The notes under the pieces were generated by a model. It saw only the letters and a list, made by a program, of their open reading frames with translations. It did no database searches and was not told the origin of the DNA. DNA of 64,000 nt. It comes from Buchnera aphidicola (Ceratoglyphina bambusae). Lineage in GTDB: Bacteria > Pseudomonadota > Gammaproteobacteria > Enterobacterales > Enterobacteriaceae. The stretch spans positions 1 to 64,000 of the forward strand of contig NZ_CP134982.1 of the NCBI RefSeq assembly GCF_039363085.1. Reading direction: 5' to 3'. Within the stretch, counting starts at the first letter, position 1. Each line of letters opens with the position of its first letter. This document shows positions 57,103 through 63,730 of the stretch, in pieces. Made by a program: the position numbers and the translations under genes.

Positions 57103-58824
57103 ATGAATGATAAATTATCAGTTGAAAAAAAGTCGGATAAAAATTTTTTTTTTAAAAATTTGTTAAATTTAATAAAAAAGAATATTATAGTTTCTTTAAT
57201 ATTTTTTTCATTTTCTATTACTGCAATAATTTCTATTTTATTTTTAAGTATATCATCAAATTATAGTACATTATATAATAATTTATCTGATAAGGATAAG
57301 AATTTTATCATCTCAGAATTATCTAGTATGAATATTCCTTATAAATTAAATAAATTTGCTAATGGAATTGAAATACCTAAAAAATTAATTTATAAAGTTA
57401 GAATGAATTTATCTGAAAAAGGTATTCCTAAAGAAAATGTTGTTGGATTTGAAATTTTAGACAAATCTAAATTTGGAGAAAGTCAGTTTTATGAACAAGT
57501 TAATTATCAAAGAGCATTAGAAGGTGAATTATCTAAAACTATAGAAAAAATAGATTCTATAAAAAATGCATCTGTTCATATAGTTTTACATTCTAAATCT
57601 ATATTTGTTAATGATCATATAAATCCTACAGCATCTATTTTATTGACTTTAAAATTTGGTGAAAAATTAAGTTTTAACAAAATAAATGCAATTTTACATT
57701 TAGTTTCTAAAAGTGTTTCTGGTTTAAAATCTAAAAATATAACTATAGTAGATCAATATGGAAATTTTTTAAATCAATCTATGGATTATGATGAATATAA
57801 TAATAATAAATTAATATATTTAGATAGTATAGAAAAAAAATATAAAAATAAAATAGAAGAAATTTTAGTTCCATTATTTGGATTAAATAACGTTAAAGCT
57901 CAAGTTACTGCTCAAATAGATTTTGATAAAAAAGAGAAAATTGAAGAAAAGTATAAACCTAATTATAATTCTAATTCTCAAGCTATACGTTCTAATCAGA
58001 AAATATATCACAAAGAATTTAATAATGTTAATAATAATGTTGAAAACGAAGAAGATGTTTTAAATAAAAATTTGGAAAGAAAAAAAAATAATTTAGAAAA
58101 TAAAAACAAAAGTAGATTTAGTTTTAATATTTTTGGAAACAATAAAAAACAAGTTCAAGATTATGATAAAAATAAATATGTAAAAAAAAATTTGTTGAAG
58201 AAAAATGATAATTATAATTCTAATTATGATAATACTACAAATTATGAATTAGATCATGATATTATAAACACTAAAATGAATACAGGAAATTTAAAAAGAA
58301 TATCTGTGGGAGTGGTTATAAACTATGTAAAGGATTCTAAAGGAAATTTTATACCTATAAGTAATAATAGCATGAAAGAAATTGAAAATTTAATAAAAAA
58401 TTCTATTGGTTTTTGTGAAAAAAGAGGTGATACAGTAGATTTAGTTAATTCATTGTTTTTCAATTCAGAAAAAATTAAAGAAAAAAACATTAAATTAGAA
58501 AAAAAAAATTTTTTAAATTTTTTTAGTAAATGGTATTACTGGATTATATTATTAATTTTTATTTTTATTTTATATGAATTTTTATTTAAAAAAGTTATTT
58601 TTTATTTTATAAAAAATATATTTATTACAAAATCAAAAAATCATAATAAAATAAAAAATAACAAAAATAAAATTGATAACAGTGAAGAAAAAAACATTAA
58701 AAAGAGTTTGTCAACAAGTTTAATTAATATTGACTCATCAAAAAAAAATAAAAAAAATATTTTTAAAGAAAAATCTTTATTTATAGCAAAAGTTATTCAA
58801 AATTGGATAAATAAAAATGAATAA
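57103..58824 (+). CDS. fliF: Flagellar MS-ring protein FliF
   Basis: Forms the MS ring in the inner membrane around the export gate. The 573-residue protein has a first membrane helix (about 29-48), the ring-building motifs with LYNNLSDKDKNFIISEL, IPKKLIYKVRMNLSEKGIPKEN, FGESQFYEQVNYQRALEGELSKTIE and SVHIVLHSKS, a second membrane helix (about 478-497) and a C-terminal tail for FliG. The region of about 285-390 is a long Asn/Lys-rich insertion-like loop. It overlaps fliG by 8 bases. Confidence 0.97.
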   Translation: MNDKLSVEKKSDKNFFFKNLLNLIKKNIIVSLIFFSFSITAIISILFLSISSNYSTLYNNLSDKDKNFIISELSSMNIPYKLNKFANGIEIPKKLIYKVRMNLSEKGIPKENVVGFEILDKSKFGESQFYEQVNYQRALEGELSKTIEKIDSIKNASVHIVLHSKSIFVNDHINPTASILLTLKFGEKLSFNKINAILHLVSKSVSGLKSKNITIVDQYGNFLNQSMDYDEYNNNKLIYLDSIEKKYKNKIEEILVPLFGLNNVKAQVTAQIDFDKKEKIEEKYKPNYNSNSQAIRSNQKIYHKEFNNVNNNVENEEDVLNKNLERKKNNLENKNKSRFSFNIFGNNKKQVQDYDKNKYVKKNLLKKNDNYNSNYDNTTNYELDHDIINTKMNTGNLKRISVGVVINYVKDSKGNFIPISNNSMKEIENLIKNSIGFCEKRGDTVDLVNSLFFNSEKIKEKNIKLEKKNFLNFFSKWYYWIILLIFIFILYEFLFKKVIFYFIKNIFITKSKNHNKIKNNKNKIDNSEEKNIKKSLSTSLINIDSSKKNKKNIFKEKSLFIAKVIQNWINKNE

Positions 58825-59815
58825 TAGATTAGATGGTTATGCAAAAAGTGCATGTTTACTATTTTTTTTAGGAATAGAAAAAAGTTTAGAAATATTAAAA
58901 CATTTAGACAAAAGTGTAATAAAAAAAATAATATATAAATTGTTAGAGCCGGATATTTTATCTAAAGATAATATAGAAATTTCTTTAAATGATTATAAAC
59001 ATTCTTTAAAAAACATTTTGTATAAAAAAAAAAAAGATAAAAACAATTATTTAAATTCTATATTATTTAACATATTTGATAAAAAAGAAATTAATGTTTT
59101 TTTGAATAAAATTAAAAATAAGAAATTATTTTTTAAAAATGTGAATAAAATTTCTTTGTATAATTATAAAGATGTTTATATGATTTTAAAAAAAGAACAT
59201 CCTCAAATAGTTTCTATTTTATTAACTTATCTTGAAAATAAAAAAGTTGTTAAAATACTTTCATTATATAAAAGAAAATATAGATTTAATATTTTACATA
59301 GAATGTTAAATTTTAAAGGTATAAAAAAAAATTTTGAAAATGAATTTTTTATTATAATTAATTCGTTATTTGCTAAAAAAAAAAAATATAAAAAAAATAA
59401 ATATTGTTATATTAAAAATTTATTAAATTTTTTTTCTAAACAAGATAAAATTTATATGTTAAAAAATATTTTTAAAGATGACAATAAGATAAAAAAAAAG
59501 ATTATATGTCAAATTTTTTCTTTTGAAGACATATTTTATTTAAATGATAATAATATATATGTTCTTTTAAAATATATTAATAAAAAAATTTTATATAAAT
59601 CTATATATAATCTTCCTGAAAAATTTAAAAAAAAATTTTTAATAAACATGTCTAAAAAACAGTTAAACTATTTTATTAAAAATATTGGAAAAGAACATAA
59701 AGATTTTTCTTTAAATAAAATTAATATTAGTAAAAAAAATGTTGTAAAAATGTTAAAAACTTTATTAAAAAAAAATGTATTATTGTTAAAAGATTTGGAA
59801 AAAATTTATGATTAA
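58817..59815 (+). CDS. fliG: Flagellar switch protein FliG
   Basis: C-ring protein between FliF and FliM. The 332-residue length matches E. coli (331). It keeps the FliM-binding motif KEHPQIVSILLTYL (about 130-143) and FEDIFYL...FLINMSKKQ in the C-terminal domain. In the torque helix, where E. coli has conserved Arg and Asp residues (SIQRLLQEVDSE), this protein reads NIYVLLKYINKK, so the charged residues that touch the stator are replaced. In-frame A12 tracts occur in two places and are tolerated. It overlaps fliF and fliH by 8 bases each. Confidence 0.95.
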   Translation: MNNRLDGYAKSACLLFFLGIEKSLEILKHLDKSVIKKIIYKLLEPDILSKDNIEISLNDYKHSLKNILYKKKKDKNNYLNSILFNIFDKKEINVFLNKIKNKKLFFKNVNKISLYNYKDVYMILKKEHPQIVSILLTYLENKKVVKILSLYKRKYRFNILHRMLNFKGIKKNFENEFFIIINSLFAKKKKYKKNKYCYIKNLLNFFSKQDKIYMLKNIFKDDNKIKKKIICQIFSFEDIFYLNDNNIYVLLKYINKKILYKSIYNLPEKFKKKFLINMSKKQLNYFIKNIGKEHKDFSLNKINISKKNVVKMLKTLLKKNVLLLKDLEKIYD

Positions 59816-60461
59816 ATTATTTTATAATAATGAATGGATAAAGTGGAATCCTAAGGATTGTTTTTCTGACAATAAAAAAAATAGTATTAATAAAATTAAA
59901 GTAAAGACAGAAAAAGAAAGTAAAATTTTAAAAAATAATTTTCTATTAAAAAGAAAAAATATTTATAATAAAGCCTTTTTAAAAGGAAAAGAAGAAGGAT
60001 ATAAATTAGGAATTAAAAAATATATATTATTTAAAAAAAATAATAAAAAAAAAAATAAAAAAATAGACAAGTTATTTTATAATTTAAAAAAATCTATTAA
60101 TTCTATAGATTCTTATATTTCTATAAGATTAGTAAAAGCATTATTTAGCATTTTAAAAAATAATAATAATGTTATTATTAAAAAAAAATCTAAAAATTTA
60201 ATTACTAAAGTAAAAAAATATTTATATAAAGAATTTATGTTTTTAAATAATTTTAATTTTATAGTTAATCCAAAAGATATAAATATAGTTAAAAAACATT
60301 TTAAAATTTTTTTTAAATATAAAAATTGGACTTTAATTTCAAATAACAATGTTTGTAGAGGAGAGTTTAAAATTTATTCTCCTGAAATAAATGTTAATTT
60401 TACTAATTCAGATTGTTGGAACCATTTGTATAGAATTTTTTTAGTAGAGAAAAATAAATGA
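59808..60461 (+). CDS. fliH: Flagellar assembly protein FliH
   Basis: Regulatory stator of the flagellar export ATPase. The 217-residue protein has an N-terminal KLFYNNEWIKWNPKDC, a middle Lys-rich helical part and a C-terminal VNPKDINIVKKHF and WTLISNNNVCRGEFKI comparable to the family. It is very rich in Lys and contains an in-frame A11 tract (60045-60055). Its place between fliG and fliI makes the identification firm. The stop TGA overlaps the fliI ATG (ATGA). Confidence 0.92.
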   Translation: MIKLFYNNEWIKWNPKDCFSDNKKNSINKIKVKTEKESKILKNNFLLKRKNIYNKAFLKGKEEGYKLGIKKYILFKKNNKKKNKKIDKLFYNLKKSINSIDSYISIRLVKALFSILKNNNNVIIKKKSKNLITKVKKYLYKEFMFLNNFNFIVNPKDINIVKKHFKIFFKYKNWTLISNNNVCRGEFKIYSPEINVNFTNSDCWNHLYRIFLVEKNK

Positions 60462-61822
60462 ATGAAAATTTAGAAAGTTGGTTAAAAAATATAAAATTTT
60501 TAGAAAAAAAAATTAAAAAAATACCAAATATTAATAAACATGGATATTTAGTGAGTTTTGTTGGTCTATTATTAGAAGTATCTGGATTAAATTTGTCTGT
60601 AGGAGAAATATGTATAATTGAAGTAATTTATAACAAAAGTATTTTTTTAATAGAAGGGGAAGTCATAGGGTTTAAAAATAATAATATATTTGTTATGTTA
60701 TTTGAAGATTCTAAAGGTATATCTCCTGGTTTAAGAGTTTTTCCTAAAGTAGATAAACATGGAAATCATAAAAGAAAAAAATTTCCTGTAGGTTATGAGT
60801 TGTTAGGAAGAACTATTGATAGTTATGGTAATCCATTAGATGAATTAGGATCTATAGATTGTTCAGAATTAGTTTCTACTTCTTATGAAAAAATTAATCC
60901 ATTAAAAAGACATCCAGTTACTGAAATTTTAGATACTGGAATTAGAGCAATAAATTTTTTTTTAACTGTTGGTAAAGGGCAAAGAATTGGTTTATTTGCA
61001 AGAACTGGGGTTGGTAAAAGTGTTTTATTAAGTATGATTTCTAAATATTCCAAGTTTGATGTATGTGTTATTGGATTAATAGGGGAAAGAAGTAGAGAAA
61101 TTTTAGAATTTATAAAAAATATAAAAGTTGCAAAAAATTTTAACAAATCTGTTGTAATAGTATCTCCAGCTAATACTACTCCATTATTAAAAATACAAGG
61201 ATCTTTATATTCTGCTAAAATAGCTGAATATTTTAGAAAAAAAGGAAATCATGTTTTATTTATATTAGATTCTTTAACAAGATATGCTATGGCTGAAAGA
61301 GAAGTTGCTTTGTCTATAGGAGAATTACCAGTAGTAAGAGGTTATCCAACTTCTATATTTTATAAATTACCTTTATTCATAGAAAGATCTGGAAATAGTA
61401 ACATAAAAAATGGTTCTATAACTGGATTATATACTGTTCTTACTGAAAACAATGAGAGTTTAGATCCAATATCTGATTTAGCTAAATCTATATTGGATGG
61501 ACATATTGTTTTATCTAAAAATTATGCTGATTCAGGTCATTATCCTGCTATTGATGTTGAATCTTCTATAAGTAGAATTATGTATGACATAGTAGATAAA
61601 GATCATTATAAAAAATCTGTTTATTTAAAACAATTGATATCTGAATATATGAAAAATAAAGATTTAATACACTTAGGGGCTTATGTAAAAGGAATTGATA
61701 AAAATTTAGATAATGCTATAGAATTATGGCCTAAAATTAAAAAATTTTTGCAACAAGATAGAGATGTTATGCATAATTTTAAAGATTCTTATAAATATTT
61801 TGTTAAAATATTAAACAAATAA
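60458..61822 (+). CDS. fliI: Flagellar export ATPase FliI
   Basis: Hexameric ATPase that powers protein export at the flagellar base, related to F1 beta. The 454-residue length matches E. coli (457). Walker A ARTGVGKS is at residues 181-188, GLIGERSREILEFI and the Walker B segment VLFILDSLTRYAMAEREVALS follow, with the family motif GELPVVRGYPTSIFYKLP. It is the best conserved protein of the flagellar block. Confidence 0.98.
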   Translation: MNENLESWLKNIKFLEKKIKKIPNINKHGYLVSFVGLLLEVSGLNLSVGEICIIEVIYNKSIFLIEGEVIGFKNNNIFVMLFEDSKGISPGLRVFPKVDKHGNHKRKKFPVGYELLGRTIDSYGNPLDELGSIDCSELVSTSYEKINPLKRHPVTEILDTGIRAINFFLTVGKGQRIGLFARTGVGKSVLLSMISKYSKFDVCVIGLIGERSREILEFIKNIKVAKNFNKSVVIVSPANTTPLLKIQGSLYSAKIAEYFRKKGNHVLFILDSLTRYAMAEREVALSIGELPVVRGYPTSIFYKLPLFIERSGNSNIKNGSITGLYTVLTENNESLDPISDLAKSILDGHIVLSKNYADSGHYPAIDVESSISRIMYDIVDKDHYKKSVYLKQLISEYMKNKDLIHLGAYVKGIDKNLDNAIELWPKIKKFLQQDRDVMHNFKDSYKYFVKILNK

Positions 61823-61848: not shown

Positions 61849-62285
61849 ATGAAAAGTAAAATACGTTTATTAAATTTATTATTAATTTTAAAAAAAATTA
61901 AATTAAAAAAAAATTCTGAAAAATATTTAAATTTAAAAAAAAAAAAATAAATAATATAAAAGAATTAAAATTATTAAAATATTATAATTATGAATATTAT
62001 AAAAACTTTAATAAAAAGATTTTACGTGGAATTAAATCTGTTGAATTAAATAATTTTAATAACTTTTTAAGTTTATTAAACTATGGTATAAAAAAAAAAG
62101 AAAAACATATTTTAAAAATAAATACAAAATATAAAAATTTTTTATTAAATTTTTTAAAAAATAAAAAAGAAATAGAAATTTTAAAATTTTTTAAATTTTT
62201 TTTTATAAAAAAAAAATGTAAAAAAGAGTTTTTTGAGTATCAATTAAATAATGAGGAAAATACTAAAATATTTTTTTTTAAATAG
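61849..62285 (+). CDS. fliJ: Flagellar protein FliJ, frame broken at an A13 tract
   Basis: Coiled-coil stalk of the flagellar export ATPase, comparable to F1 gamma. ATG 61849 with AGGAA upstream starts MKSKIRLLNLLLILKKIK; at A13 (61935-61947) the frame ends in TAA. One base back the frame is open to TAG at 62283-62285 and continues with helical Lys/Asn-rich sequence (NNIKELKLLKYYNYEYY and later KKCKKEFFEYQLNNEENTK). With fourteen A the protein has 145 residues against 147 in E. coli. Sequence identity is low, so the assignment rests on position after fliI, length and helical nature. Confidence 0.8.
61935..61947 (+). repeat. A13 tract that breaks the fliJ frame
   Basis: Thirteen A after codon 29 of fliJ. 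One extra A opens the frame to the stop codon at 62283-62285. Confidence 0.85.
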
Positions 62286-62350: not shown

Positions 62351-63730
62351 ATGAAAAAAAATTTTAATTGTTTTGTTCATGTTAACAAAATTTTTAAAAA
62401 ATATGATTGTGTTTTAAAAAAGAATAAGAAAATTAAATTTGATAAAAAATTTCTTATAAATGATTTATATTTATCAAAAATTTTTAATATAAATTTAAAT
62501 AATTTTTATTCGAAAGAAAAAAACTTTTTATATAAAATATTTAAAGAATTTTCTAAAAATTTAGAAATATTTTTATCAAACATGTTAGATTACAATATTA
62601 AAGTAGATGTTGATAAAATAAAAATAAATACTTATAAAAAATATTTTAGAAATTCATCTTCTTTAATTAGTTTGAATTGTTTTAAAATAAATTCTATAAA
62701 AGATTTTGGTTTTTTAATTTATTCTCATAGTTTCATACTAAGAATTTTAGAAATATTTTTTAGAGGAAAATACAATTTTTTATATGAAAATAAATTTAAT
62801 AGTATTTCTTATAGTGAAATTTTTATAAATAACAAGTTTAAAAGCTGTGTTATTAAAAAATTATCTAAAATATTATATAAACATTTATTTTTAAATATAA
62901 TTTCATATAGAACTAATAAATTTATGTACAAATTTAATAAAAATTTTTTTTCTTTAAATAATTTTGTAATTATTGTTAATTTTAATTTTTGTACTAATGA
63001 ACATAGCAATTCTTTTAGCATATGTTTCCCTTTAAATTTTATTAAATATGTAAATAAATTATTAATAAAAAAAATAAATAGTGCTAAAAAAATAAATAGT
63101 AAAATAACTTTTAATTTATTTAAAAATATAAAATTTGTTATGAAATCTTATTTAAAACATTTTTATATAACTTTGTTAAATTTATATAAATTAAAAAAAA
63201 ATGATATTCTAAAAATAGAAAATCCTAAAAAAACATTTATATATATTGATAAAAAATTATTTTTTACCGGTGAAAACATAGTTTTTAAAAGTAAAAATTC
63301 TATCTTAATACAAAAAATAGTTTATTCAACATTTTTAAAACATGGAGATAATATGAATAATGAATTAGACAAATTTAAAAAATATTCTTCAAAAAATAAT
63401 ACTGAAAGTAAATATGAGTTAGATAATGAAACTTTTTCTGAAAATTTAAATAAAGATGTTTTAAACTCAGAGGATTTAAATAAAAAAATTAATTATATTG
63501 GAGATATTAAAATAAAAATATCTGTAAAATTAGGTAGTGTAAAAATAAAAACAAAAAAATTATTGTCTATAAAAAATGGTTCAGTAATACAATTAAATAA
63601 ATTAGCTGGAGAGCCGTTAGATGTTTTAGCTAATAATTGTGTGATAGCTAAAGGTGAAATAGTGGTTATTAAAAATAGTTATGGAATTAGAATTTTAGAA
63701 ATATTAAATAATTTAAAAGAAATAAAATAA
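62351..63730 (+). CDS. fliM-fliN: Fused flagellar C-ring protein FliM-FliN
   Basis: A single 459-residue frame joins FliM and FliN, which form the C-ring and, in export, a sorting platform. Residues 1 to about 330 correspond to FliM (E. coli 334): a diverged middle domain, then the first SpoA-like part with LLNLYKLKKNDILKIENPKK and FFTGENIVFKSKNSILIQKI. Residues 335-459 correspond to FliN (E. coli 137), with GDIKIKISVKLGSVKIKTKK and LNKLAGEPLDVLANNCVIAKGEIVV-type SpoA2 sequence and the end YGIRILEIL. There is no stop codon between. The CheY-binding EIDALLNG of FliM and its GGDGR motif are absent. Shine-Dalgarno AAGGAA precedes the start. Confidence 0.93.
   Translation: MKKNFNCFVHVNKIFKKYDCVLKKNKKIKFDKKFLINDLYLSKIFNINLNNFYSKEKNFLYKIFKEFSKNLEIFLSNMLDYNIKVDVDKIKINTYKKYFRNSSSLISLNCFKINSIKDFGFLIYSHSFILRILEIFFRGKYNFLYENKFNSISYSEIFINNKFKSCVIKKLSKILYKHLFLNIISYRTNKFMYKFNKNFFSLNNFVIIVNFNFCTNEHSNSFSICFPLNFIKYVNKLLIKKINSAKKINSKITFNLFKNIKFVMKSYLKHFYITLLNLYKLKKNDILKIENPKKTFIYIDKKLFFTGENIVFKSKNSILIQKIVYSTFLKHGDNMNNELDKFKKYSSKNNTESKYELDNETFSENLNKDVLNSEDLNKKINYIGDIKIKISVKLGSVKIKTKKLLSIKNGSVIQLNKLAGEPLDVLANNCVIAKGEIVVIKNSYGIRILEILNNLKEIK
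63344..63355 (+). promoter_or_regulatory. Internal ribosome binding site and start codon for FliN
   Basis: GGAGA at 63344-63348 lies 5 bases (counted from GGAG) before an in-frame ATG at 63353, exactly where FliN should begin (MNNELDKFK; E. coli FliN also starts with an MSDMNN-type sequence). It is among the better Shine-Dalgarno sequences of this region and could give a separate FliN. Confidence 0.65.
63353..63730 (+). CDS. fliN: FliN from internal start (second product of fliM-fliN)
   Basis: Translation from ATG 63353 would give a 125-residue protein, close to E. coli FliN (137). It comprises an acidic, Asn/Glu/Ser-rich N-terminal stretch (about 40 residues) and the SpoA domain with KLGSVKIKTKKLL, NGSVIQLNKLAGEPLDVL and GEIVVIKNSYGIRI. 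It overlaps the fused frame completely. Whether both products exist cannot be told from DNA; the spacing and position of the ribosome-binding site support it. Confidence 0.6.
   Translation: MNNELDKFKKYSSKNNTESKYELDNETFSENLNKDVLNSEDLNKKINYIGDIKIKISVKLGSVKIKTKKLLSIKNGSVIQLNKLAGEPLDVLANNCVIAKGEIVVIKNSYGIRILEILNNLKEIK

Follow-up and report, generated by a model that had tools for sequence, protein, structure and literature searches.

The systems nearest to the locus described here are the injectisome protein SctQ and FliM–FliN fusions obtained in Salmonella. In one report (PMC4832279), full-length SctQ is equated with a FliM–FliN fusion and its short form with free FliN, with a 1:2 logic for Spa33-FL and Spa33-C and a 1:3 logic for FliM and FliN, and a Salmonella mutant (Kihara 1996) is said to express the fusion alone. 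A second source (PMC4443714) states that an engineered FliM–FliN fusion supported flagellin secretion and some swarming. No publication naming a fliM–fliN fusion in Buchnera was found in the literature searched.

The window, meaning the whole stretch of 64,000 nucleotides analysed, is the beginning of contig 1 (424,619 bases) of the 433,948-base genome of Buchnera from Ceratoglyphina bambusae (CP134982; PMC11193766). Here, fliM and fliN lie in one open frame that still holds a fliN start, and we consider it probable (roughly 0.7), judging from sequence comparison, that this single gene yields both a FliM–FliN fusion and a predicted free FliN, a design equivalent to SctQ and SctQ-C that would have been reached independently.

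Fused frame and flagellar neighbourhood

The fused frame (62351–63730, + strand) has 459 codons with no stop at the FliM/FliN boundary, and an uninterrupted fusion (456–461 aa, 52–57% identity to the window) was found in all six genomes of the genus, the five relatives being, by inferred name, Buchnera of Chaitoregma tattakana, Astegopteryx bambusae, Ceratovacuna japonica, Ceratovacuna keduensis and Pseudoregma panicola. Profile searches placed the FliM middle domain at 62510–63061 (+; Pfam FliM, residues 54–237, 43.9 bits against a cut-off of 27), and two FliMN_C (SpoA) stretches, scoring 90 bits, at 63122–63322 (+; SpoA1, of FliM) and 63497–63706 (+; SpoA2, of FliN), bearing out the first-pass annotation, which had read the locus as one frame with both SpoA domains and no stop. 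These were the only FliMN_C matches in a search of the whole genome, which showed no further SpoA gene. The fliN profile TIGR02480 scored above its cut-off (93 bits), and the full-length FliM profile TIGR01397 fell below its curated one (83.8 against 219.6 bits), a naming threshold that corresponds to no structural feature; orthology was taken from domains, synteny and the six-genome alignment, and on the TIGR01397 score the FliM half is strongly diverged.

Pairwise dN/dS was 0.09–0.22 for SpoA2, 0.20–0.37 for SpoA1, 0.28–0.69 for the remainder of FliM, and 0.37–1.7 for the variable linker between the fliN start region and SpoA2 (63398–63484, +, end approximate). The SpoA domains are under purifying selection, and both halves of the fusion look functional in this comparison; since FliM evolves loosely, its function may be eroding.

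An AlphaFold model was built from 33 window and locus sequences, with separate FliM rows cropped; full-length rows wrongly align their SpoA with the SpoA of FliN. Both SpoA folds were confident (pLDDT 81–90 at residues 261–320, in SpoA1), the linker between them was disordered, and the N-terminal half was modelled poorly (mean pLDDT 60.5). The top match, by Foldseek and by sequence search alike, was the engineered Salmonella FliM(SPOA)::FliN (PDB 4yxc, 4yxb), with SctQ-type proteins (YscQ-C, HrcQb) ranking far behind.

The fused gene belongs to a flagellar operon that also encodes FliF, FliG, FliH, FliI and FliP. In the window, fliG (58817–59815, +) encodes an EHPQ motif, which we take to be the FliM-docking motif, and lacks the DD pair, which we take to belong to the torque helix; EHPQ was present, and the DD pair missing, in 6/6 genomes. 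The product of fliH (59808–60461, +) has an N-terminal WxxW, the flagellar adaptor peptide that binds FliM/FliN, which is kept in five of the six, a single W being left in the symbiont of Ceratovacuna keduensis (inferred name). Two such FliH tryptophans form a clamp that binds FliN in a flagellar FliH–FliM–FliN structure (PMC4443714). The export ATPase gene fliI follows at 60458–61822 (+). FlhA was present in all six genomes and neither MotB nor flagellin was found in any of them, in keeping with the earlier suggestion that the Buchnera flagellar base serves export and not rotation.

Several further features of these operons were recorded. In the window, an A-run of about 13 bases near 61935–61947 divides fliJ (61849–62285) into two frames. 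The five relatives have it intact, and poly(A) transcriptional slippage is a candidate means of rescue. In the Ceratovacuna keduensis symbiont (inferred name), the end of fliF and the start of fliG are duplicated in tandem (L075:2708–4287, offset 858 bases), and a VNNKD repeat lies within the duplicated stretch. FliN of the Formosaphis symbiont (L062:3404–4234) is enlarged to 276 aa by an NVNNHIST-like repeat. FliO and FliP occupy one frame in several other Buchnera (L068:3939–5063, L061:4037–5116), and no FliO frame was seen between fliMN and fliP in the genus of the window.

Internal fliN start

At the boundary, the fused frame has the sequence AACATGGAGATAAT-ATG-AATAAT; its ATG, at 63353, encodes Met335, the sole invariant Met of the fused protein besides Met1 in the six genomes. 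Initiation there would give a free FliN of 125 aa (63353–63730, +); the predicted masses of 54.5 kDa for the fusion and 14.1 kDa for this product agree with the forms of 55 and 14 kDa anticipated earlier. The sequence 5′ of Met335 is GGAGATAAT in the window, and GGTGATAAT, GGTGATAAA, GGTGATAAG or GGTGAAAAT in the relatives. The first-pass annotation had pointed to a Shine-Dalgarno (SD) sequence, GGAGA, and an ATG at this boundary; both are present (GGAGA at 63344–63348, +, 4 nt 5′ of the ATG), and the start is conserved with strong pairing, but the wording GGAGA is peculiar to the window genome, the five relatives reading GGTGAT or GGTGAA in the equivalent position, so conservation of GGAGA itself was rejected. 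All six genomes share the 16S 3′ end ...GGATCACCTCCTTA, with which both the GGAGA and the GGTGA wordings therefore pair.

Anti-SD duplex energies at Met335 were −6.4 (window), −7.4, −9.7, −9.8, −9.8 and −8.8 kcal/mol. For comparison, gene starts in the window had a median of −2.95 kcal/mol (n = 30) and internal in-frame ATGs a median of −1.9 kcal/mol (n = 235), with pairing at least as strong as −6.4 kcal/mol at 3% of the former and about 5.5% of the latter. Among the 27 invariant Met codons of eight ORFs (fliF, fliG, fliH, fliI, fliMN, fliP, fliQ and fliR; six genomes), true starts included, the internal fliN start had the strongest mean pairing (−8.65 kcal/mol), followed by the fliM start (−6.0 kcal/mol). 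The GG comes from a Gly codon that does not vary, though only 2 of the 12 columns 5′ of Met335 (17%) are identical in the six genomes, compared with 47% of the 15 columns from Met335 on, 3% of linker columns and 61% of those in SpoA2. The invariance of Met335 and its top mean pairing, next to a drifting linker, indicate in this comparison that the internal start is evolutionarily maintained, under selection. Local mRNA openness was considered as a further mark of the start and not supported, the structure around the site being not specially open.

The start could also persist as a relic, or because the residues GD[NK]MNNELEKFKKY are needed; most of this block is within FliN, and constraint on the protein may account for its conservation. 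On such a reading, the internal start is a silent remnant of fliN, and the fused protein suffices by itself or is cleaved to FliM and FliN by a protease in the linker, whose modelled disorder would suit cleavage; a fused frame with no internal ATG in another Buchnera (G015) likewise agrees with it. A relic start should decay at the divergence of this genus, and the ATG is instead invariant in six genomes, where different bases give equal pairing that is the strongest of the region. The Salmonella fusion alone, moreover, gives few and fragmented C-rings, a defect rescued by FliN (PMC4832279). We regard a fusion that acts alone as unlikely, if still the best placed of the alternatives to a gene with two products.

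Junctions in other genomes

The fliN start of free-living relatives falls within the last part of fliM, in another frame. In nine further genera of the family with small genomes, the two genes are separate frames. Among Buchnera, the genes overlap by 4 nt in one genome (G188, Therioaphis by inferred name) and by 8 nt in two (G049, Baizongia by inferred name, and G105), and are spaced apart in others. In Nipponaphis monzeni (G035; same aphid subfamily, inferred name), they share one frame and are separated by one TAA and 48 nt. Unfused Buchnera had fliN start pairings of −0.3 to −9.3 kcal/mol, which puts the fused genus at the strong end.

Further fused frames were found in 3 of the 15 FliN-bearing genomes of a Lachninae genus (Cinara confinis, Nippolachnus piri and Tuberolachnus salignus, names inferred; L059:2074–3468, L109:830–2248 and L113:1040–2290). 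One of these (G015, Cinara confinis by inferred name) lacks a junction ATG, which shows that a fusion does not require an internal start; one (G208, Nippolachnus piri by inferred name) retains both SD and ATG at the fused boundary (−6.9 kcal/mol); and one (G213) has no ATG in the fused frame ahead of that of FliN. Three changes are required to explain the fused state on the tree of FliI, FliP and FliN, and the two fused groups stand well apart on it, from which fusion is placed at two or more separate origins. The fusion is not found in all Buchnera, an outcome that the first-pass annotation had named as a point against its reading; most have separate genes. Nor was a wider spread borne out by a survey of 200 genomes of the phylum, 141 of which had FliM above the cut-off: the eight other FliM frames of at least 424 codons, the length range covered, had no FliN domain.

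In the other 12 of the 15 Lachninae genomes with FliN, FliM stops before its SpoA domain. These twelve Cinara-type Buchnera (L101–L108, L110–L112, L114) have a FliM ending at about 210–265 aa, a retained FliN, and about 130–280 nt between the FliM end and the first fliN ATG; their C-ring would lack the SpoA1 of FliM.

Such truncation would fit a reading in which fliM is dying in the genus of the window, loss of its stop being one step of ongoing decay, with free FliN the only product that matters and the upstream half mainly a transcript leader. The dN/dS of about 0.3–0.7 in FliM, the A-runs near fliM codon 25 in three genomes (11, 14 and 11 bases at codons 25–26 in L073–L075) and the fused frame of G213 fit such a course. 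Against it, the FliM half has stayed open over about 334 codons in six genomes, SpoA1 is constrained at the dN/dS given above, and within the region only the internal fliN start exceeds the fliM start in SD strength, so we hold decay to be improbable, a shade more so than the silent relic. Slippage at the fliM A-runs could lower the yield of full-length fusion, making internal initiation matter more. A sequencing or assembly error, or poly(A) slippage restoring separate FliM and FliN, is very improbable, since the junction is equally open in six assemblies from two studies (PMC11193766, PMC9672956) and no long A-run is conserved there, for all that A-runs are many in Buchnera and the adjoining fliJ is frameshifted at one.

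Proposed mechanism and comparison with known systems

For a gene with two products, the following course is proposed. In the ancestor of the lineage, the fliM stop would have been lost, joining FliM to FliN, through either a small indel close to where fliM and fliN once overlapped out of frame or the disappearance of an in-frame stop (compare Nipponaphis), while the fliN ribosome-binding site and ATG were retained, and strong, within the fused frame. Initiation at fliM would yield the fusion, whose SpoA1 and SpoA2 could pair within the chain, and initiation at the internal ATG would yield free FliN; one fusion and two free FliN would then restore the flagellar C-ring unit of 1 FliM to 3 FliN. 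Because the genome has no other SpoA gene, no source but the internal start is evident for the two extra FliN per unit. The FliM–FliN ring would dock on FliG and hold FliH–FliI for export, without rotation, and an exporting, non-rotating base would still require that ring as the seat of FliH–FliI.

If both products are made, the locus would lend evolutionary support to a ring unit of 1 FliM to 3 FliN, would mean that the SctQ gene design arose a second time, independently, in a system without rotation, and would bear on why Buchnera retains flagellar bases. The broader proposal, that a flagellar C-ring, having lost rotation, arrived independently at the whole of the SctQ gene design (fused SpoA1–SpoA2 plus internally started free SpoA2), is put forward tentatively, with the odds somewhat against it; if true, that design would be a natural end state of an export-only type III base, and the locus would show one way in which FliM and FliN may have given rise to SctQ.

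The joining of adjacent flagellar genes within an operon recurs in the FliO–FliP single frame of other Buchnera (G197, G049), which involves other genes. FliM and FliN of other Buchnera are orthologous and hold the same operon place, but are separate frames, overlapping by 4–8 nt or spaced. The Salmonella fusions (the Kihara 1996 mutant and FliM(SPOA)::FliN, 4yxb and 4yxc) have the same domain order but are laboratory-made, whereas the Buchnera fusion is natural and fixed and retains the fliN start, making it a natural, conserved counterpart of the construct built by structural biologists arguing that SctQ equals FliM–FliN.

With SctQ (SpaO, Spa33, YscQ, SsaQ, HrcQ), the locus shares one gene and two SpoA domains, with an internal start signal from which a C-terminal SpoA protein may be made, and the likeness to SctQ first noted is apt as a gene design, with two SpoA domains and a maintained internal start. 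It differs in that its sequence is that of flagellar FliM and FliN, with FliG and the FliM middle domain retained, and in that its neighbourhood is flagellar, with EHPQ-bearing fliG throughout the genus, and not that of an injectisome. Membership in SctQ was rejected, as the profile (TIGR02551, 32.9 bits, under its cut-off of 100.8), the neighbours and the best structural match are all flagellar. The first-pass suggestion of a C-ring converged on an injectisome-type sorting platform fares poorly for the same kind of reason: the kept features (FliG EHPQ, FliH WxxW in 5/6, the FliM middle domain) are flagellar, and the closest match is flagellar FliM::FliN, not SpaO or YscQ. Conversion to such a platform is speculation. 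Because the internal start is that of the former separate fliN, the fused architecture would have an origin separate from that of SctQ, and recent, and convergence with SctQ in gene design is a fair claim.
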